Of a DNA stretch of 24,073 nucleotides, positions 9,064 through 23,637 are shown one piece after another. The DNA is taken from positions 1-24,073 of the IMG/VR virus record IMGVR_UViG_3300008266_001211. The stretch is one strand, 5' to 3'. Below the pieces are notes generated by a model. That model saw nothing but the letters and a program-made list of their open reading frames with translations, was not told the origin of the DNA and ran no database searches. Position numbers and translations under genes: made by a program. The stretch is from a virus. Within the stretch, counting starts at the first letter, position 1; every line of letters begins with the position of its first letter.

Positions 9064-11595
9064 ATGGCTACTCCTACTCCTCAAGAAATCCAAAGATTAT
9101 TAGATAAATTAGATGCTGCTTATAAACGATTAGGAGAAGAAGATAATCCTTTTAAAAATTTTAATGTTAATCAATTTAAGGATGCTGCTACTGCTGCTAG
9201 AGCTTTAGAAGATGCTTTAAGAGGAGTTGAAGATAGATTAGACAGTGTTAGAGGTGATTTAGATTGGATTAATAAATCTCTTACTGATAGTTTAAATGAA
9301 CTTTCTAAACAAGATGTGTATCTTAAAATGCAAAAATCATCTCTTAGTGATATTAGTAATATAGCTAGACAAGCTTTAGCTATTAGAAGAGGTGAAAGTG
9401 ATCTTAATGATAAGATTCTTAAAAAATTAAAAGAACAAACTCGAGAAAATATAAGAAATCTAGAGAATGTAAGAGATGCATACATAAAACAAGGAAAATC
9501 AACAGAAGAGATAAATAAACAAATAGCATCATCTAAAGATTTAGAAAAAAATTTAAATGATATTGAAGATACTTATGAAAATATAAATAGTAAGTTAGGC
9601 TTTATGCCTAAAATAGCAGGTGGAATTGACAAAGCTCTTTCAAAACTTGGACTCCCAGACCTTGGTTTTTCAGATGCTTTAAATGATACCTTAAAAGCTG
9701 GTCAAGCAGCTGAGGGGTTGGGTCAAAAATTTAATGTTGTTGAAGAATTCACTAAAAGAGCAGGAGAGAATTTAAAGGGAATGCTTTCTAAAGCTAATCT
9801 AATTCAATTCGCCATAACTCAATTAGTAGATGCTTTAATTAAAACTGACAAAAACACAGGAGAATTAGCTAAAAATATGGGAGTTAGCTATGATGAAAGT
9901 CTAGAAAATTTAATTAAAGCCCAAACATCTTTAAGTAAAGCTTTTGGAACCAATGTTCTGTTAAGTGGAGAATTATTAAAAGATTACGCCCAAATAACAG
10001 AACAAGCTGGTTATAGTGCTGAAGCTGCTACTTCTTTAGGTAAAATTACCCAAGCTACAGGTGGTGATTTATCTAAAAATACAGCTTCTATATTAGGAAC
10101 AGCTGCTGCTTTTAACGCTACTAATAAATTAGCTCTCAATGAAAAAGAAATTGTTGAAGAAGTAGCTAAAACAGGTGCGGCTACAGTTTTAACATTTAAT
10201 AAAAATACTAAAGCTTTAGCTGATAATGTTCTTCAAGCTAAAAAGTTTGGTCTTAATTTAGAACAGGCTTCTCAAATATCTGAGGGATTACTTAATTTTC
10301 AATCTTCTATTGAATCTGAATTAGAAGCTGAATTATTAACTGGTAAACAATTAAACTTTGAACAAGCCAGATTTTTAGCTTTACAAGGTAAAACCGGGGA
10401 GGCTGCCGCTGAGGTTGCTAAACAAGTTGGAAGTTCAGCTGATTTCGCCGATATGGGTGTTCTAGCTCAAGAAGCTTTAGCTAAATCTGTTGGATTATCT
10501 CGTGATGATTTAGCTCAATCTATTTTAGACAGAGAAGTTTTAGCTAAGTTAGGAGAGAAAGAAGGAACAGCCCAAGAAGCTTATAACAACCTTAAAAAAC
10601 AAGGTCTATCAGATGATGCTATAGCAGCTAAATTAGGTGATGAAAAATTAGCAACCCAACTTAAATCTCAGTCTATACAAGATCGTTTTAATGCTTCTAT
10701 AGCTAAAATGCAAGAATTATTTGTATCTGTAGCGGAACCTATATTAGCTATTGTATCTCCTTTAATGGATCTAGTTATGATAGTTTTACCTCTTATTAAT
10801 AAGTTACTTCAACCTATTAAAACCACATTTGATGGTATAAGTAAAATAATATCAGGAGACTTAGAAAATCTTTCATTTTGGGAAGCCGCATTAGGAGGAA
10901 TAGCTGTAGTTTTAGGGGGTATATTAGGTTTAAATAGAGCTATATCTGTTATAGAAGCAAGAGTTACCTTAGCTAAGGAATTACAATTAGGTCTAGGGGC
11001 TCAAATATTAACTGGTTTAGGGCTTCAAAATATGGCTTTAAATTATCAAATAGCTCGAGAGCAAGGTATGAATGTTTTAAGAGCTATAGGTGTGACATTA
11101 GAACAAACTAAATTAGGAGCTATAATAGCTCAAGGTGTAGGTATTGTTAAAAATATAGGTAAGTTAATAATAGAAAACGCAGCTAGATTCGCTGGGGCTA
11201 TAGCTGCCATAACTACAGCTTCAGCAGCTACTTTAGGTATAGGTATAGCAGCGATTGTAGCTGGAATAGCTGCGGGAGCTATGGCTTTAAAATCAGCTCA
11301 AAAAGCAGATGATATGGTATCTGAAGGAGGGTATGGTAAACGTACTCTCTTAGCCCCCGAAGGAGCTATTAAATTAAATGATAAAGATACTGTAATAGCT
11401 GGGACTAATTTAGGTGGTGGGGGAGGAACACAAGCTTCAACATCATCTCCTTCAATAGATTTAAGTCCTCTTTTAGCTAAAATGGATCAAATGAACACTA
11501 TCTTAAATCAACTATTAGCTAAAGAAGGCACTGTTACTTTAGATGGTAATAAAGTTGGTACTGCTTTGACTATGGGATCTTATAAAATACAATAA
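9064..11595 (+). CDS. Tail tape measure protein
   Basis: This 843-residue protein is largely helical. Residues about 30-180 look like coiled coil (LEDALRGVEDRLDSVRGDL and similar). There are hydrophobic stretches at about 556-585 (VAEPILAIVSPLMDLVMIVL), 605-628 and 710-745 (GIGIAAIVAGIAAGAMAL), as is usual for tape measures that line the tube and may enter the host membrane. The end has KRTLLAPEGAIKLNDKDTVI followed by a Gly-rich linker and a short helix. I have the impression that this ending is common in marine T4-like tape measures. The position directly after the chaperone frames is typical. At roughly 1.5 angstrom per residue the length would imply a tail tube near 125 nm, a rough estimate only. 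Confidence 0.88.
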   Translation: MATPTPQEIQRLLDKLDAAYKRLGEEDNPFKNFNVNQFKDAATAARALEDALRGVEDRLDSVRGDLDWINKSLTDSLNELSKQDVYLKMQKSSLSDISNIARQALAIRRGESDLNDKILKKLKEQTRENIRNLENVRDAYIKQGKSTEEINKQIASSKDLEKNLNDIEDTYENINSKLGFMPKIAGGIDKALSKLGLPDLGFSDALNDTLKAGQAAEGLGQKFNVVEEFTKRAGENLKGMLSKANLIQFAITQLVDALIKTDKNTGELAKNMGVSYDESLENLIKAQTSLSKAFGTNVLLSGELLKDYAQITEQAGYSAEAATSLGKITQATGGDLSKNTASILGTAAAFNATNKLALNEKEIVEEVAKTGAATVLTFNKNTKALADNVLQAKKFGLNLEQASQISEGLLNFQSSIESELEAELLTGKQLNFEQARFLALQGKTGEAAAEVAKQVGSSADFADMGVLAQEALAKSVGLSRDDLAQSILDREVLAKLGEKEGTAQEAYNNLKKQGLSDDAIAAKLGDEKLATQLKSQSIQDRFNASIAKMQELFVSVAEPILAIVSPLMDLVMIVLPLINKLLQPIKTTFDGISKIISGDLENLSFWEAALGGIAVVLGGILGLNRAISVIEARVTLAKELQLGLGAQILTGLGLQNMALNYQIAREQGMNVLRAIGVTLEQTKLGAIIAQGVGIVKNIGKLIIENAARFAGAIAAITTASAATLGIGIAAIVAGIAAGAMALKSAQKADDMVSEGGYGKRTLLAPEGAIKLNDKDTVIAGTNLGGGGGTQASTSSPSIDLSPLLAKMDQMNTILNQLLAKEGTVTLDGNKVGTALTMGSYKIQ

Positions 11596-11611: not shown

Positions 11612-11836
11612 ATGGCAATAATTAATCAATTACTTAAGCAAGGATCAATTTACTCTAACTTAGATGGAAGAGACGCTGCAATTCCTAATTTTAAAGAATC
11701 TAAATTACATAATGAATATTCTTTAAATGGTAAACCTGGATTAAAAAACAAACCTGCTCCTTCTATTTTAGATTTAAACGGTAAAATCCCTTCAAATAAT
11801 TATAGAAATAATGCTCCTGAAGGGAGAACTTTCTAA
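11612..11836 (+). CDS. Small protein of unknown function
   Basis: This 74-residue protein is rich in N, K, P and L, with the sequence LDGRDAAIPNFKESKLHNEY near the middle of its N-terminal half and a Gly-Arg-Thr-Phe end. It is probably extended rather than globular. I do not recognise a family. It lies 16 bases after the tape measure and 4 bases before the large baseplate-type protein. It is probably translated with that protein and may be a small baseplate or tube-tip component. There are no cysteines, membrane segments or known motifs. Confidence 0.65.
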   Translation: MAIINQLLKQGSIYSNLDGRDAAIPNFKESKLHNEYSLNGKPGLKNKPAPSILDLNGKIPSNNYRNNAPEGRTF

Positions 11837-11840
11837 CTAG

Positions 11841-14366
11841 ATGCCTTTAGTTGATCTAAAAACAAATCTCAAGTCTATAAAATATGGGCTTGATAGACCT
11901 AATATGGGTAGTAGTAAAGAACCTTTTATTACCAAACCCATACCGGATGAAATACCAGTTGACATTCCTGATTTTATATTAAGGGATGGGGCTTTAAAAA
12001 GAGGATTTGAAGATGTTTCTAGATTAACTCAATTATTTACTACTGTTAGAGGGCTTAGATTCATAGCTAATACTAACCTTTTAGCAGCCCAAAACCCTAA
12101 AATACCAGGATCACCAAGAAATTTATACTTACCAACCAGCACTATAGCTCAGGTTGGTGTTAATGCTATAGGTACTCATTTAAACCTTTTAGGTGAAACC
12201 CCTATTGATTTACCTAGTACCCCTATTAATATAGGTAATTTTTCTTTTAATATAGGAGGAGATACCTACTCCACTGAGTATAAAAATAATCATTCAGATC
12301 AAGATAGTAACAGGTTAGTTATTTTAACTCGAAAAAAAATAGGATTAAAAGGAGAAGAAGAAGGAATTGGAGATTTTTATATAGATCCTACTAAAGCTAT
12401 TAAATATGGTATTGCTCTTTCTAATGATAGGTTAATATCTAACTATTTAGGTGGACCTGGGGCGGGCTTAACTGGGTTAAATACAACTATTAATAGGACA
12501 GAGTTTACAGTAGGTTCCAAAGGATATAGTGGTGAAGATATATCAACATCTAAATCTAATTCTAGAAACCAAATAGCTAACTCTAAAACTTCTTTAAATT
12601 TAACTAACTTATTAGGAGCTTCTAGTGAATACTTCACTTATACTGAAGTGAGTGGTATTCAAGTCCCTGATCCTGATCCTGAATTTTTAGGAATTAACCC
12701 TGGAGATGGGTCTCAATTAAAAACTTACGGTCCTCAAGATAATAATAGTACTTTAAGTATTAATTCTGATAAAGATTCTCTTATTTCTTCATCTTTACAA
12801 ACTTCTTTTAACGAATCTAATAATTCTAAAACCTCAATCAATGGTTATAAATTATTAGGAGCATCTATCAAAGAAGGAATAAGTGATTGGTCTGATGCTG
12901 GATCAGGTTCAGTTGAAGTTGGGTTTAATTATGAAAATGGCACTCAAACCAAATTATATGGTCCTCAAGACAGTAATACTTCTTTAAGTAAGGATTCTAA
13001 TAAGGATTCTCTTATTTCTTCATCTTTACAAACTTCTTTTAACGAGTCTAATAATTCAAAATCTTCAATAAATGGTAATAAATTATTAGGTGCTTCCCTC
13101 AAAGAAGGAATATCTGATCAAAACAATACAGGTTCAATTAAAACTGGTTTTGATGCAGATGGTAAACAAACCAAATTATATGGTCCTCAAGACAGTAATA
13201 CTTCTTTAAGTAAGGATCCTAATAAAGATCTTCTTATTGCTTCATCACGACAGGTTTCTTCTGGTGTTACTTCTCTTAAAACTCTCTCATCTTATAAAAA
13301 TTTGTTAGGAGCTTCTAAAGTATATGATGAGAGAAATAGTGTTAAAGAATCTTCAACAGCCCCTTTTACTGAACCTGAAGTTGATAAATCAGGATTTAAT
13401 AACCTAAATCAACAGCTTAAGAGATATGGCCCTCTAGATAATAATATAGTCCCTGATAAAAACTATTTAGATTATAGATACCAAGGAACCCCAGCTTTAA
13501 GAGAAAATATAAGTTCATCACTTTATGAAATAGGTAGGCAAGGTAAAGTTGATATGTTGACTACACCTAATAGCCCTTATGGTCAAACTTTTTTTCCTAA
13601 TTACACTGTAATAAATTCTCCTTTTATAGGAGATAAAAATTTTGATGCTATAAGAAACCAAAAAGATCAGTTTAACAGAAATAATACTGAAAAACTAAAT
13701 CTTAGTAAATTTAGTGGAACTACACAAGCTTTAACCCCATTTTTAAAGGGGGCGGATGGGAAAAAAGAAAAAGATAGTGGAGGAGATGAAACAACTAATG
13801 AAGGCCAATTATATCCTTTCATTTTAAACCTAATAGACGCCGAATCCCCAGATACTAACCAATATCTTTATTGGCAAGCTTATATAGAATCATTTAGTGA
13901 TAAAATTAACGCTGATTATGAAAATTATGAATATCCTGGTTATGGTACCTCTTTTCATAGATATAAATCATTTAGTAGAGAAATAAATTTAGATTTTACT
14001 ATTGAAGTTCCTCATCCTGATCAAATGGTTATCATTTATCGTAAACTTGAAGAACTTATAAGACATTTAGCACCTAACTATGGTCAAGGTGGATATTTGC
14101 GTGGGAATTTTGTTAAACTTACATTTGGAGATTATCTAAGAGACACCCCATGCATCTTAAAAGGTTTCACAATAGAGCCAATATTTGACGGGGGATTTGA
14201 CATAGGTCGTTCTGGTTATGGATCAAGAGGAAAAAGTTCAGGCTATCAATTACCAAAAGTTCTCAAATTAAGCGGTTTTAATTTTATAGTACTTGCTGAT
14301 AATAATAACCAATTGATAAGAAAAAGTTCAACTTTTATTTCAAATAAGGAACATCCTTTAAATTAA
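11841..14366 (+). CDS. Large baseplate or tube-cap type structural protein with internal repeats
   Basis: This 841-residue protein has three parts. The N-terminal part (residues about 1-200) contains RFIANTNLLAAQNPKIPG and LNLLGETPID. The middle (about 230-530) is built of four related units of 74-82 residues, each carrying LLGAS and YGP(Q/L)D. The C-terminal domain (about 650-841) contains YIESFSDKINADYENYEYPG, RSFSREINLDFTIEVPH-like strands, a helix around YRKLEELIRHLAP and LRDTPCILKGFTIEP. This part is reminiscent of the tube-like beta fold used in tube-initiator and baseplate-cap proteins (T4 gp48/gp54 type). Position between tape measure and hub supports a baseplate role. The exact homologue is not certain. 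The start is 4 bases after the preceding stop, and no SD is present. Confidence 0.65.
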   Translation: MPLVDLKTNLKSIKYGLDRPNMGSSKEPFITKPIPDEIPVDIPDFILRDGALKRGFEDVSRLTQLFTTVRGLRFIANTNLLAAQNPKIPGSPRNLYLPTSTIAQVGVNAIGTHLNLLGETPIDLPSTPINIGNFSFNIGGDTYSTEYKNNHSDQDSNRLVILTRKKIGLKGEEEGIGDFYIDPTKAIKYGIALSNDRLISNYLGGPGAGLTGLNTTINRTEFTVGSKGYSGEDISTSKSNSRNQIANSKTSLNLTNLLGASSEYFTYTEVSGIQVPDPDPEFLGINPGDGSQLKTYGPQDNNSTLSINSDKDSLISSSLQTSFNESNNSKTSINGYKLLGASIKEGISDWSDAGSGSVEVGFNYENGTQTKLYGPQDSNTSLSKDSNKDSLISSSLQTSFNESNNSKSSINGNKLLGASLKEGISDQNNTGSIKTGFDADGKQTKLYGPQDSNTSLSKDPNKDLLIASSRQVSSGVTSLKTLSSYKNLLGASKVYDERNSVKESSTAPFTEPEVDKSGFNNLNQQLKRYGPLDNNIVPDKNYLDYRYQGTPALRENISSSLYEIGRQGKVDMLTTPNSPYGQTFFPNYTVINSPFIGDKNFDAIRNQKDQFNRNNTEKLNLSKFSGTTQALTPFLKGADGKKEKDSGGDETTNEGQLYPFILNLIDAESPDTNQYLYWQAYIESFSDKINADYENYEYPGYGTSFHRYKSFSREINLDFTIEVPHPDQMVIIYRKLEELIRHLAPNYGQGGYLRGNFVKLTFGDYLRDTPCILKGFTIEPIFDGGFDIGRSGYGSRGKSSGYQLPKVLKLSGFNFIVLADNNNQLIRKSSTFISNKEHPLN
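12726..13440 (+). repeat. In-frame direct repeats of about 222-246 bp within the baseplate-type gene
   Basis: Four YGP(Q/L)D units start at 12726, 12957, 13179 and 13425, spaced 231, 222 and 246 bases. The first two full units are close to identical at the DNA level over long parts. For example, CTTATTTCTTCATCTTTACA and the following ACTTCTTTTAACGA occur in both. The second and third share AAATTATATGGTCCTCAAGA. Units degrade toward the 3' end. This is a recent in-frame tandem duplication series. Confidence 0.85.
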
Positions 14367-14377
14367 AGTTAATATAA

Positions 14378-14683
14378 ATGAATAGATATGTTAATATAAC
14401 ACCTATAGTAACCTCTTCATTAGGAAAACAATATTATTATGGAGCTAGGTATCCTGAGGTGGCTTATAGAAATACTGATTTTTATGTTATATCCCAAGAA
14501 GAAGATAGGTATGATTTATATGCTAATGAATATTATAGAGACCACACTTTATGGTGGATAATACCTGCTGCTAACCCTAAGTTACCCTTTAATTCTCTTT
14601 ACCCTCCTTTGGGAGTTCAAATTAGAATACCTATAGAATTAACAGAAATTCTTTCTGATTATAAGTTATTAAATCAATTGTAA
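14378..14683 (+). CDS. Small LysM-like baseplate protein (gp53-like region)
   Basis: This 101-residue protein has a C-terminal half with the layout of LysM-like phage baseplate proteins: DRYDLYANEYYRDHTLWWII, then AANPKLPF and a closing LYPPLGVQIRIP strand (residues about 45-90). In LysM domains this corresponds to 'D.l..iA..yYgd..lWw.Ia.aN.....l..G..l.IP'. In contractile tails such small proteins (the gp53/LysM type) join tube or hub to the baseplate wedges. It is placed between the tube-cap-type gene and the hub. No catalytic residues are expected. The start is AAATGAAT, 11 bases after the previous stop. The LysM pattern is clear; the virion role is inferred. Confidence 0.75.
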   Translation: MNRYVNITPIVTSSLGKQYYYGARYPEVAYRNTDFYVISQEEDRYDLYANEYYRDHTLWWIIPAANPKLPFNSLYPPLGVQIRIPIELTEILSDYKLLNQL

Positions 14684-14697
14684 AAATTATAGTGGAT

Positions 14698-17600
14698 ATG
14701 AAAACACCTCAAGAAATAATTGGTGAATCTTTTGACGGGTATGTAAGTAAACAAATTGAACTTAGACAAACTAAATTAGGGCAAATTCAAAAAGATAATA
14801 AAATATTAACTTATGAATCTGGAAAAAGTCCTTGGATAAGACTTTGTTCTAGTGTTGATTTAGATTCAACCAAAGCCAGTGAATTTGCCTCCAAATATGC
14901 TAGCGGACAAAACCTTACAGGTAATCAATTAGCTAAATATTATATGTTATTTGGAGGAGTTAGCATGGGAGATTTTGGGACTGAAAATTGGAGCCCAAAG
15001 CAATTAAAAGGAGGAGTTGCTAATACCTACAATGTAAGTTATATACAACAAAATGCCTATGGTTTTGACTCAACCAATCAGTATGGCTTATCTCCTATGC
15101 CTGGGGTAACTTCTATAGATGTTGTTTCTCAAAACCAAGGCTCTTTAAGAGAAGCTACTATTAAAATTACTTGTTATAATATTTCTCAATTTGAGACAAT
15201 TGAACTTTTATTTTTAAGATTAAAATATACTATTCTTTTAGAGTGGGGTCATTCTATGTATTTTGAAAACGGAACTCAAGATTTAAGAACTACTCCCTCT
15301 GTTAGTGATGTTTATGATAAATTTTTAAATGTATCTAAATTAGATCCACCTCAAGGACAAACGTATTTAAGAAGAGTTTTGGATTATATAGAAGTCCAAA
15401 GAGAAAGTAGTAGTGGTAACTATGATGGTTTCTTAGGGTGGGTAACTAATTATGAATGGGAAATGCAACCTAATGGCATTTATAATATAACTATTAAAGC
15501 TATTTCTCATGGTGATATTATTGAATCTTTAACTGTAACTACTCCTCGTTCTGATGAAAGTGGGGGTGATGAAGTTAAAGAACAAAACAAAGCTAATAAT
15601 AGCACTTTAGGCAGAATTTTAAATGCCTTAAAAAAGGCCTTAGATGGAGATGATTTATTTACAGCTGAACAACCTGGATTCCCTGTAGCTACCTCAGACT
15701 TAACCTCAACAAATGGTGTTATCATTTCATATTTTCAAGATAAAGAAACAACATCTTCCTCAAATATAGCTAATTTAATTAAACTTAAAAATAAACCATA
15801 TATAAATCCTTTTTATAATATGGCTGGGGAAGAAGTGGTGAGGATAGCACCCACAATGGGTGAGGGTAAAAATTTTTATTACATAACATTAGGGGCTCTT
15901 CTTAGACTAATTGAGAGTTTTTGTCTAACATACGACAAATCAGGAATTCCTACTTTTAACATATATTGGTCATATGAGGGCAATTATACTACTAATGCTG
16001 ATCCTTATATAATGTCAAGTGATATTAATACTTGTTGGGCTTTTGGAGAAAGTGCTTTTGCTAATCCTGGTGAAGATTATAACAGCGCAAAAGCCTCAAC
16101 TAAAAAAATAAGCTATATAGGAGACCAATTTTATAATAGTAGTGCTTCACGCTTATATTATATGTATGCTTTTCTTAACATAGATTTTCTTCTAACTACT
16201 TTAATTGATAATATTGATTCTGAAGGGAATCTTTCGATTTATGATTTTCTCTCAGCTATTTTAACAGCTATGAATGGGACTTTGGCTAACTATATTAACC
16301 TTGAACCTTACTATGATTCCACTACTCATAATTTATACATCATTGACAGATCTACCCCAGTTAAACCAAACAATCTTCCAACACTTATAAATGTAGGTTT
16401 AGTAAAACCAAATCAAGGTACCTTTGTAAAGAGCTTTTCAGTCAAATCTGAAATAACCCCAAATTTAGCTTCTCAAATAGCTATAGGTGCTCAAGCAAAT
16501 AATGAAGATGTAGGTGTAGAATCTATAGCTTTTTCTAGGTGGAATGCTGGTTTGACAGATAGAATTGTACCTAATAAAATAGTCCCCAAAAATAGCACAG
16601 AAAACAGTGATAATTTTTTAGGTCTTAAAAAGGACACTATTTCTTATTTAACAGCTTTAGGAAGTGGAGTATGGATGAAAAATTATGTAGAGGAATTAAG
16701 CCCCTCAGTGAATGACTATCAAAAACAAATTAAGGCCAGTAGAATATTAGCAAACCCAAAAGCAGCCTCACCATCTTTTATACCTATATCTCTAAACTTA
16801 ACTTTAGACGGAATATCAGGAATAAAGATTTTTCAAAAATATACTATAACAGAAGATTACCTCCCAAAAAGTTATAGAGATAATATAGAATTTATTATTA
16901 AAGGTATATCTAATACAGTCGATCCTTCAGGATGGACTACTAAAATTGAAGGTCTTAGCATTCCAAAAGGAAATGAAGCACTAAGTGGGGGAGTTAGAAC
17001 TAGTGAAGCTGGTGCTTTTGATAGTAATAGAGATAGAAGTGTTTCTACAAATGATGGGGGAAGTGTTGCTACTCCAAATAGTGCTGGGTTAACTCAACCA
17101 ACAACAGGGGGAAAGATAGTACATGATTACACGGGTCAAGCTGGTCAAAATGTTCAATTGATTTTAGACGCTTTAAATGCTGTGGGTCTTACTAATCCTA
17201 TATCTCAAGTAGGAGTTTTATGTACTGTATCTAAAGAATGTGGATTTTTACTTAAAGGAGAAATTGGTTATAATAACACTTCTAATGAGAGAATCAGAAA
17301 GATTTTTAAAACTAAACTTGGAAAACAAAGTGATGCTTTTATAAATGATCTAAAAAAAGACAAAGTCAGATTTTTCAGTTATGTATATTCTGATAATTAT
17401 GGTGGTTTAGGTAATGGAAGTGCTGCTTCTAAAGACGGGTGGACATATCGAGGAAGAGGATTTAATGGTCTAACAGGAAGAGCTATTTACAAAAAGTATG
17501 GTGATCTTGTAGGTGTAGATATACTTAACAATCCTGATTTAGTAAATAAAGATTTAGCTTTGGCAGCTAAAATACTTGTTCAATTTTTAGTTGTCCAACC

Positions 17601-17745
17601 CAAAAATAAAGGATCATACACAGTGTTCCAAAATACACAACAAGCTATTTTAAAATTTGCTGATTTGAATAACGGAGGCACCCCAAATACTATGCAACGA
17701 GAAAAAGCCTTACAGGCAGAACGTCATTTCAAGATTGTAGGATAA
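14698..17745 (+). CDS. Baseplate hub protein fused to a GH19-type peptidoglycan hydrolase
   Basis: This is a large protein of about 1015 residues. The N-terminal three quarters look like a tail hub: PMPGVTSIDVVSQNQGSLRE, KITCYNISQFETIELLF, TILLEWGHSMYF, LGWVTNYEW, and later KYTITEDYLPKSYRDNIEFI. A Ser/Gly/Thr-rich linker at about residues 765-805 leads to a C-terminal domain of about 210 residues. That domain has the GH19 lysozyme/chitinase pattern: SKECGFLLKGEIGYNN (catalytic acid candidates Glu849 and Glu857, counted from 14692) and YRGRGFNGLTGRAIYKKYG (919-937). It would cut peptidoglycan as the tail enters, like T4 gp5 lysozyme but with an unrelated enzyme. ATG at 14698 is chosen; GTG at 14692 is in frame and would add two residues. 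Confidence 0.85.
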   Translation: MKTPQEIIGESFDGYVSKQIELRQTKLGQIQKDNKILTYESGKSPWIRLCSSVDLDSTKASEFASKYASGQNLTGNQLAKYYMLFGGVSMGDFGTENWSPKQLKGGVANTYNVSYIQQNAYGFDSTNQYGLSPMPGVTSIDVVSQNQGSLREATIKITCYNISQFETIELLFLRLKYTILLEWGHSMYFENGTQDLRTTPSVSDVYDKFLNVSKLDPPQGQTYLRRVLDYIEVQRESSSGNYDGFLGWVTNYEWEMQPNGIYNITIKAISHGDIIESLTVTTPRSDESGGDEVKEQNKANNSTLGRILNALKKALDGDDLFTAEQPGFPVATSDLTSTNGVIISYFQDKETTSSSNIANLIKLKNKPYINPFYNMAGEEVVRIAPTMGEGKNFYYITLGALLRLIESFCLTYDKSGIPTFNIYWSYEGNYTTNADPYIMSSDINTCWAFGESAFANPGEDYNSAKASTKKISYIGDQFYNSSASRLYYMYAFLNIDFLLTTLIDNIDSEGNLSIYDFLSAILTAMNGTLANYINLEPYYDSTTHNLYIIDRSTPVKPNNLPTLINVGLVKPNQGTFVKSFSVKSEITPNLASQIAIGAQANNEDVGVESIAFSRWNAGLTDRIVPNKIVPKNSTENSDNFLGLKKDTISYLTALGSGVWMKNYVEELSPSVNDYQKQIKASRILANPKAASPSFIPISLNLTLDGISGIKIFQKYTITEDYLPKSYRDNIEFIIKGISNTVDPSGWTTKIEGLSIPKGNEALSGGVRTSEAGAFDSNRDRSVSTNDGGSVATPNSAGLTQPTTGGKIVHDYTGQAGQNVQLILDALNAVGLTNPISQVGVLCTVSKECGFLLKGEIGYNNTSNERIRKIFKTKLGKQSDAFINDLKKDKVRFFSYVYSDNYGGLGNGSAASKDGWTYRGRGFNGLTGRAIYKKYGDLVGVDILNNPDLVNKDLALAAKILVQFLVVQPKNKGSYTVFQNTQQAILKFADLNNGGTPNTMQREKALQAERHFKIVG

Positions 17746-21585: not shown

Positions 21586-23400
21586 ATGGCTAATAATACA
21601 TTAACTCAACTTAACCAATTACAGATAGCTTTTAAAAAGTTATTAGGAAAGTCTCATACTAACCCTAATAAGGAATTTTTCAATGAAAACTTTCCATCAG
21701 CTATACAATCTACTACAGATATTATATTTGGGGAACCCATTTCTTCAATAACAATAACTCCAGCTAATTACACTAATACAAATAATATAACTGAAGTTGT
21801 TCCTTTCACACTTGAGGCTCTTACAACAGATTCCACTTATGATGCTGACCCTGGGAATGCTACTTTGAGTAGTTATGGAACTACTATTGGAGCCCAAACA
21901 GCTGATACAGCTGCTGAGAATACTTCAACAGTTCATGCTTATAAGTTAGTATTACCTTCTAATTATCAAACTAATAGTACTAACCCTAAAAAAGGAACTG
22001 GTCCTTTTGTTAATAGCAAAGTTGTAGCGGACACAACTGGATCTTTGCAGATTATACCTGAATCATTTGGGCTAGGTTATAGACCAATAGTTAGAGACTC
22101 CAGTGGTAATCTTATATCTAGTTTAGGTAATGAAAACTGGGTTATTGATCCCTATATTGGGATTTTATGGATCCAAGACCAAGGTGGATCTTTTGCGGTT
22201 CCAGCATCTGTTACAGCTTCACTCTATATTGGTAAATACGCTGATGAAGTAATTGCTAGTGGTAGTGGAGAACCTGCCTTCCCATTCTCAGGTAGTGCTG
22301 TTATAACAGGATCTCTTACCATTAGTGGTAGTAGCGGACCGGAGTTAATAGTTACAGGAACTGTTGAAGTTACAGGAGGTATAACAGGTTCACTATTTGG
22401 TACTTCAAGTTGGGCTATAAATTCTTTAACCGCCTCCTATGTTAATCCTTTAACCCAATCAGTCTTTATAAGTGGAGGTATTGACATATATAACAGTGGT
22501 AATTGGGATATCTATACAGGAACTCATATTATTGGAAATGGGATTGCCCCAGCATTAGGAAGTATTACAGGTTCTGGTCTTATAATTAGTGCTTCAGATT
22601 TACCACTAGGTACATATAATCTTTTAAAAGTTGGAAATACTGAAATAGTTGGTTATGAATTTGGTGGAACTAGTACTTTATTAATACATAATGTTGATTC
22701 TTTCCAAGTAACCTCAGGAAGTGATGGTGGAACCATAAAGAATTTGTTTGTCCATGATGGGGATAATTTTGAAATTTATTCAAAAGAATCTAAAATAGCC
22801 TCTTTTGGTTCATCTAGTACCTCTATAACTTCTACTGATAATTTTTCGGTTGGTTCTACTACAACATCAATTAAAGCAGCTGTTACTAATGATTTAACTA
22901 ATGGTGTAGCAGTATTTACAACAGCAGTTGGGATAAATCCATCACCTATAGGAAGAGTTTCTAGTTCCTTATTTATTTTAGCTACTGGTTCAAACCAAAT
23001 AATATCCGGAGGATTAACTATAACAGGAAGTTTAAATGTTTCTCAAGGAATAACTGGTTCGTTATTTGGAACTGCGAGCTGGGCTCAAAGTGCTTCTCAA
23101 GCTATTAGTTCTAGTTACGCTTTAAGTGCTTCCTATGCTTTGAGTGCTTCCTATGCCCTAAGTTCTAGTTATGCTCTAAGCGCTTCCTATGCCCTAAGTT
23201 CTAGTTATGCTCTAAGTGCTTCTTATGCTCTAAGTGCTTCTTATGCTCTAAGTTCTAGCTATGCTCTAAGTGCTTCCTATGCTTTGAGTGCTTCCTATGC
23301 TTTGAGTGCTTCCTATGCTTTGAGTGCTTCCTATGCTTTGAGTGCTTCCTATGCTTTGAGTGCTTCCTATGCTTTGAGTGCTTTATGCTCTAAGTTCTAG
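21586..23400 (+). CDS. Fibre-type protein with SxSYAL repeats, 5' part before a frame break
   Basis: This 604-codon frame shares the fibre style of its neighbour: GSAVITGSLTISGSSG, VTGGITGSLFGTSSWA and LNVSQGITGSLFGTASWAQS, a repeated shaft motif. From 23107 it enters an array of 15 hexapeptides SASYAL or SSSYAL. At 23383 two bases of a unit are missing (GTGCTTTATGC where other units read GTGCTTCTTATGC). The frame then ends with the out-of-register LCSKF and TAG at 23398. The same repeat continues in the next frame to 24073, so this stop is not the natural end. A true frameshift, a repeat-slippage event or an assembly error are all possible. No membrane segment or enzyme motif is visible. Confidence 0.75.
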   Translation: MANNTLTQLNQLQIAFKKLLGKSHTNPNKEFFNENFPSAIQSTTDIIFGEPISSITITPANYTNTNNITEVVPFTLEALTTDSTYDADPGNATLSSYGTTIGAQTADTAAENTSTVHAYKLVLPSNYQTNSTNPKKGTGPFVNSKVVADTTGSLQIIPESFGLGYRPIVRDSSGNLISSLGNENWVIDPYIGILWIQDQGGSFAVPASVTASLYIGKYADEVIASGSGEPAFPFSGSAVITGSLTISGSSGPELIVTGTVEVTGGITGSLFGTSSWAINSLTASYVNPLTQSVFISGGIDIYNSGNWDIYTGTHIIGNGIAPALGSITGSGLIISASDLPLGTYNLLKVGNTEIVGYEFGGTSTLLIHNVDSFQVTSGSDGGTIKNLFVHDGDNFEIYSKESKIASFGSSSTSITSTDNFSVGSTTTSIKAAVTNDLTNGVAVFTTAVGINPSPIGRVSSSLFILATGSNQIISGGLTITGSLNVSQGITGSLFGTASWAQSASQAISSSYALSASYALSASYALSSSYALSASYALSSSYALSASYALSASYALSSSYALSASYALSASYALSASYALSASYALSASYALSASYALSALCSKF

Positions 23401-23637
23401 CTATGCTCTAAGTGCTTCTTATGCTCTAAGTTCATCCTATGCCCTAAGTTCTAGTTATGCCCTAAGTTCTAGTTATGCTCTAAGTTCATCCTATGCCCTA
23501 AGTTCTAGCTATGCCCTAAGTGCTTCTTATGCTTTAAGTTCTAGTTATGCTCTAAGCAGTTCTTATGCTTTTAATGCTACAAGTGCTTCTTATACTTTAA
23601 GTTCAAGTTACGCTACAACTGCCTCTTATGTACTTAC
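23089..23637 (+). repeat. 18-bp tandem repeat array coding SxSYAL hexapeptides
   Basis: The unit is 18 bp (AGTGCTTCCTATGCTTTG and variants; AGTTCTAGTTATGCTCTA), with roughly 26 units. A homogeneous run lies at about 23269-23376, and mixed SA and SS forms lie on both sides. The array keeps 18-base register except for one unit at 23377-23392 that is 2 bases short. The last units decay into ATSASYTL and TTASYVL. Confidence 0.9.

Follow-up and report, generated by a model that had tools for sequence, protein, structure and literature searches.

Length covariation between the repeat-bearing linker of a predicted tube-initiator-type protein and the tape-measure protein of contractile phages

Why should a baseplate-type protein encoded between the tape measure and the hub of a phage tail, a place where the initial annotation of this locus expected length to be constrained, carry a set of repeat units in its middle? 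The window, that is the whole 24-kb stretch of IMGVR_UViG_3300008266_001211 analysed here, holds the tail module of a contractile phage, with genes in the order sheath, tube, hub-type protein (PHROG 150), tape-measure protein (TMP), a 74-aa ORF, the repeat-bearing protein (here protein X), a gp53-like protein and a GH19-domain hub-type protein (Table 1).

Gene order and predicted fold of protein X

The window TMP aligns with the annotated TMP of Flavobacterium phage immuto at 25% identity over about 580 aligned columns (E 3e-33); searches of PHROG and Pfam with it gave no confident match. X starts 245 nt beyond the end of the TMP gene. The 74-aa ORF (11612-11836) occupies this gap in the window, gaps of about 210-330 nt between TMP and X recur in many relatives, and a small protein is annotated there in immuto.

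By sequence, X gave only chance-level matches in PHROGs (best E 0.31) and Pfam (best E 0.37) and none in a search of PDB sequences with an E cut-off of 1. A structure model of X, built from 51 sequences, has a mean pLDDT of 50. The repeat region is predicted to be disordered (pLDDT below 50 over residues 230-611), and the C-terminal domain reaches 66-90 by block over residues 661-820, except for 42 at 791-800. In this predicted structure the C-terminal domain matches the T4 baseplate chain 5iv5_BE (Z 10.7) and chain R of the A-1(L) baseplate-initiator entry 8kea (Z 10.0), as well as baseplate chains of AFP, PVC and an Anabaena contractile system, which we take to be those named Afp7, Pvc7 and Cis7. 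The residues of the matched T4 chain are numbered 39-358, within the 364 aa of gp48 and beyond the 320 aa of gp54, and the chain therefore fits gp48. The N-terminal domain folded alone gave no structural match at E 0.001 or better, and none of 15 chains compared with it reached Z 2, a result that says little given the low confidence of that model (mean pLDDT 64). Together, the matches point to X as a baseplate tube-initiator-type protein with a gp48/Afp7-like C-terminal fold, an identity that we put forward tentatively and jointly with the length-matched arm considered below.

Table 1. Features of the tail module and of protein X (nucleotide positions in the window)
Feature	Position	Strand	Basis
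Protein X (841 aa): N-terminal peptide and helical domain, variable four-unit linker, C-terminal tube-initiator-type domain	11841..14366	+	
N-terminal peptide of X (residues 1-16), resembling the N-terminus of distant Mel-JY01-type proteins	11841..11888	+	
N-terminal domain of X, mainly helical, to about residue 220	11889..12500	+	pLDDT 42-84 per ten-residue block, folded alone
X unit 1 (residues 246-320); closest to L198 unit 1 and L199 unit 2	12576..12800	+	
X unit 2 (residues 327-397)	12819..13031	+	
X unit 3 (residues 404-471)	13050..13253	+	
X unit 4 (residues 477-552), most diverged; closest to the last units of L199, L198 and L200	13269..13496	+	
41-nt tract common to units 1 and 2, identical to 13005-13045	12774..12814	+	
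51-nt tract common to units 2 and 3, identical to 13167-13217	12945..12995	+	
Predicted C-terminal tail-tube/tube-initiator fold of X (residues 657-817)	13809..14291	+	Predicted structure
Tape-measure protein (TMP), 843 aa	9064..11595	+	Position and similarity to immuto TMP
gp53-like baseplate wedge subunit	14378..14683	+	PHROG 7145, E 1e-7
Hub-type protein with GH19 domain; hub assigned by place; its length is the control gene length	14692..17745	+	

Divergence and copy number of the repeat units

The initial annotation described four units with LLGAS and YGP(Q/L)D markers (nt 12726-13440) in the 841-residue product of ORF 11841-14366, and an in-frame duplication inside a baseplate-type protein. 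Both observations were correct: LLGAS occurs at residues 257, 338, 415 and 488 and YGP(Q/L)D at residues 296, 373, 447 and 529, marking four in-frame units of about 70-80 residues each. The markers stand at nt 12726-13439, but with the unit HMM the array opens about 150 nt sooner than first described, near 12576. The best internal self-match of X, scored on the L003 protein, identical in all 841 residues, was 258 as against at most 51 in 30 shuffles.

The first two units had also been thought nearly identical in DNA, synonymous positions included. This did not hold, as they share 71-76% DNA identity with a dS of 0.45-0.48, and only tracts shorter than a unit, the 41-nt and 51-nt tracts of Table 1, both in frame, are identical. 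Such exact tracts suggest later conversion or unequal exchange. Units 2 and 3 are mutually nearest (78-81% identity, dS 0.41), units 1 and 3 are more distant (65-66%, dS 0.67-0.70), and unit 4 differs from the other three by a dS of about 0.8-1.1 and is, judging by this divergence, older than units 1-3. Outside the window, units 2 and 3 are both closest to the unit-1 type. Unit 1 differs from its L198 ortholog by a dS of 0.35 and a dN of 0.04, so that the duplications look approximately as old as the L198 split.

Among relatives, unit number differs by whole units. The unit HMM, whose background was at most 4.4 bits over 312 shuffled sequences, detects four units in the window and in L197 (the same X on a near-identical contig), three in L199, L200 and L201, two in L198 and one in L202, L204, L206, L213, L218, L223 and L225, with partial matches in L214, L212, L209, L016 and L063; five of the one-unit sequences (L204, L213, L218, L223 and L225) gave no seed to the HMM. 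Unit number is thus 0-3 elsewhere among the relatives, as against four in the window and L197, and because of this difference the case for a fixed, ancient four-unit architecture, with the same units at saturated dS, fails. The duplications had been called recent. This fits L198 and L199, whose two common units stand at a dS of only 0.04 and 0.16 and which are yet one whole unit apart, but not units 2 and 3 of the window, at 0.41.

An IMG/VR search listed 80 of 426 reported relatives. A first broad set of 84 loci contained 68 distinct homologs once 3 short and 13 identical ones were set aside. In four of the 68, namely L003 (the X of the window), L005, L019 and L033, the self-match lay more than 4 SD above shuffles; two units as in L004 fall below this mark. 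The linker of the L033 homolog (L033:4919-5473) carries two near-identical copies with a period of 88 residues, unlisted by the unit HMM above 6 bits. By eye these copies resemble the X unit, but a common origin is not claimed.

Other repeats and indels were noticed in the window. An 18-nt repeat array encoding ALSASY-type hexapeptides lies at 23083-23569, where an apparent loss of 2 nt near 23383 changes the reading frame, so that the gene is divided between two ORFs. Two adjacent fibre-type genes, with C-terminal halves alike by eye, contain collagen-like GPSGSQ arrays (232-832 and 1613-2040). The window and L003 are near-identical save for indels (window 9904-9909 and 16653-16836), for which assembly error is possible: the window TMP is without about 60 nt, in frame, relative to L003, and the L003 hub is without stretches and reads as two ORFs.

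The region may be a flexible spacer or an exposed baseplate loop, as was first proposed, in which repeats change near-neutrally by slippage and unequal recombination. The predicted disorder of residues 230-611, the whole-unit difference between the very close L198 and L199 and the further repeat arrays in the same window would all agree with this. However, there is little protein change between unit 1 and its L198 and L199 orthologs (dN 0.04-0.05 at a dS of 0.35), and a spacer does not by itself predict the link to TMP length described below, so that we regard this explanation as improbable.

Linker length and tape-measure length

In the window clade, linker length and TMP length covary. Phylogenetic contrasts over 26 tips, the window included, gave r 0.577 (p 0.002), the two lengths changing in the same direction in 18 contrasts and in opposite directions in 3. 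Of 2000 tip permutations, 11 were as high; such permutation takes no account of phylogenetic signal and is a rough guide only. Definitions, trees and branch floors were varied between contrast runs, and p values here and below are uncorrected for multiple testing. The other parts of X showed no such trend (r -0.21 for the N-terminal and -0.35 for the C-terminal part). The expected constraint on length suits these flanking parts, which span 182-252 and 151-199 residues over the 26 tips, much better than it suits the linker, which spans 119-473. The sample consisted of 44 of 80 loci plus the window, with L241-L276 left out, as were L231, L237 and L240 (no core pattern) and L212 and L238 (no TMP). 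Merging rows of equal length gave 29 tips (r 0.48-0.54), and leaving out the distant L235, L236 and L239 gave the 26.

The covariation was kept on trees of the hub-type protein (PHROG 150), the gp53-like protein and the tube protein (r 0.53-0.60, p 0.002-0.007, 24-26 tips), when any single contrast was dropped (r 0.54-0.68), and when either the window or L197, which have one common X, was left out (r 0.59 and 0.58). A slope of 2.2 obtained in this clade without its multi-unit members was dropped, being about 1.3 on other trees. By unit count, TMPs of 655-863 aa go with no full unit (14 tips), those of 931-1097 aa with one unit (seven tips from three clades) and those of 778-938 aa with two to four units (five tips); the tips are not independent of each other. 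The multi-unit clade and its sisters (8 tips) gave r 0.64, with 128 of 2000 permutations as high, and are unconvincing alone; L200 has three units but a TMP of 938 aa. Among L198, L199 and L197 the TMP differences fall in a C-terminal stretch. Over 49 tips of the wider family, a test in which 13 loci, among them L023-L027 of the window clade, were without the motif, r was 0.24 (p 0.09), with 20 like against 22 opposite signs.

The strongest rival to a physical matching is that phages exchange TMP, X and their neighbours as a linked block, or that several tail genes lengthen jointly (general co-scaling). The close neighbourhood of TMP and X, the high divergence of TMPs among close relatives and the block-wise variation of identity along X and its neighbours would speak for exchange. 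Hub length, taken as a control over 19 tips, was linked neither to the linker (r -0.006) nor to the TMP (r -0.15), but this result depends on one tip, L197, in which the hub ORF is split (506 aa). With L197 left out (18 tips) the linker-hub r is 0.38 (p 0.12), the TMP-hub r 0.49 (p 0.037) and the linker-TMP r 0.68, and some general co-scaling is therefore likely. However, with the hub held constant the linker-TMP correlation is still about 0.61 (arithmetic from the 18-tip values), the N-terminal part of X, although encoded between the TMP and the linker, does not follow the TMP, and the trend persists on the trees of other genes and recurs, without a hub link, in a distant clade. We consider exchange or co-scaling unlikely, though it deserves serious weight.

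This distant clade is typified by Microcystis phage Mel-JY01. Its homolog of X (WWT39329.1, 2255 aa) has a similar C-terminal domain (31% identity, E 6e-8), the same gene order and a similar N-terminal peptide, but carries about 20 copies of a 44-aa repeat that is unrelated to the X unit and precedes the helical core, whereas the X units follow it. For a single chosen pair, the likeness of the N-terminal peptides was equalled in 1 of 20000 shuffles. The peptide fitted best at the N-terminus in 54 proteins out of 78, a set that includes truncated and repeated ones.

Arm and TMP length covary in the main part of this clade (37 tips: r 0.598, p 9e-5; 0.664 with another branch floor) and over all 44 tips (r 0.461, p 0.0016; 0.509 in a repeat analysis with another branch floor), and hub length followed neither (r -0.11 with the arm, 0.02-0.04 with the TMP). 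The C-terminal part of X showed r 0.24-0.27 with the TMP (23 like, 8 opposite signs) and 0.34 with the arm (p 0.037). Total X length, repeat count and repeat span were more weakly related to the TMP (r 0.27-0.41), and exceptions were seven far tips (r -0.45) and a six-tip subclade (r -0.04). The set comprised 72 of 78 loci (L191-L196 left out), six earlier loci and Mel-JY01. After exclusion of L181 (no X found), truncated X or TMP and L157 (TMP ORF of 382 aa), and removal of rows equal in X and TMP length, 45 tips were left, or 44 without L139, which has no anchor.

The slope of this relation, in TMP residues per arm residue, is unstable. A first regression on the 27 of 45 tips that fitted an arbitrary anchor pattern gave 0.59, raw values for 44 of the 45 tips and for the 37-tip main clade are 0.25 and 0.43, and contrasts gave 0.26 (44 tips), 0.39 (37) and 0.51 (31, one subclade left out). 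Arm length would thus correspond to about 17-22 TMP residues per 44-aa repeat, as against 8-9 by direct count (about 9, interval 1-17). One repeat per ring was rejected on this direct count, and ring matching is not claimed. Since slopes range from 0.26 to 2.2 over the two clades, no single geometry fits.

A possible arm matched to the tail

Arm length follows TMP length in the clade of the window, where the hub control is not clean, and in the main Mel-JY01-type clade, weakly in the wider family and not in two subclades. This covariation hints at a matching of arm and tail, and it is possible, as our tentative explanation, that X is a tube initiator with an arm that is matched in length to the TMP and the tail. 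According to this model, the C-terminus of X would be placed in the tube-base ring and its N-terminal part would stay engaged with the TMP or the growing tube. The arm between the conserved N-terminal part and the C-terminal domain would vary by whole-unit duplication, loss and probably conversion. A longer TMP might then select for a longer arm, for which added units would offer an easy route. We searched titles and abstract openings of the open-licence literature and found no report of such a length covariation.

One may speculate further that the arms run along the tail, with the repeats laid against successive parts of the tube or TMP, much as the modules of nebulin follow actin. Contractile tails would then have a second length-matched part besides the TMP, made of initiator chains with repeat arms, a generalisation that we think rather improbable. 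Tail length is generally ascribed to the TMP (PMC10966104, PMC3004832). A second structural protein with a variable part that follows the TMP, and does so in two groups of phages that are distant from each other and have unrelated repeats, would indicate a partner matched to the TMP.

Another model has the arm act as an assembly chaperone that coats or solubilises the TMP before the tube encloses it, a longer TMP needing more binding sites; once the tail is complete, the arm could then be placed elsewhere than along it. Chaperones acting on the lambda tape measure during assembly have been described (PMC8718954). Such a role would produce the same covariation of linker and TMP, and would suit the predicted disorder of the arm and the short hydrophobic motif, LLGAS, that recurs in it; however, the arm belongs to a predicted structural protein rather than to a separate chaperone, and we consider this role very unlikely.

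Among known systems, the predicted C-terminal fold of X is shared by T4 gp48, which caps the tail tube at the baseplate, and by tube initiators from contractile injection systems. In T4, gene 48 lies directly after the TMP gene 29, as X does after its TMP, but gp48 has 364 aa whereas X has 478-841 aa over the 26 tips, with a variable arm. Older work on T4 may have linked gp48 with tail length. The tube initiator of cyanophage A-1(L), gp18, likewise resembles the predicted C-terminal domain of X in having a tail-tube-type beta-barrel, which in gp18 lies at the tube base, and in the accessible text no repeat arm is described for it (PMC10966104), unlike in X. A second alpha/beta domain is present in gp18 and in the injection systems, and none was identified in X from its low-confidence N-terminal model. 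The length of phage TMPs varies with the determinants of tail length, as that of X appears to do; X itself, however, adjoins the TMP and has a predicted tube-initiator fold.
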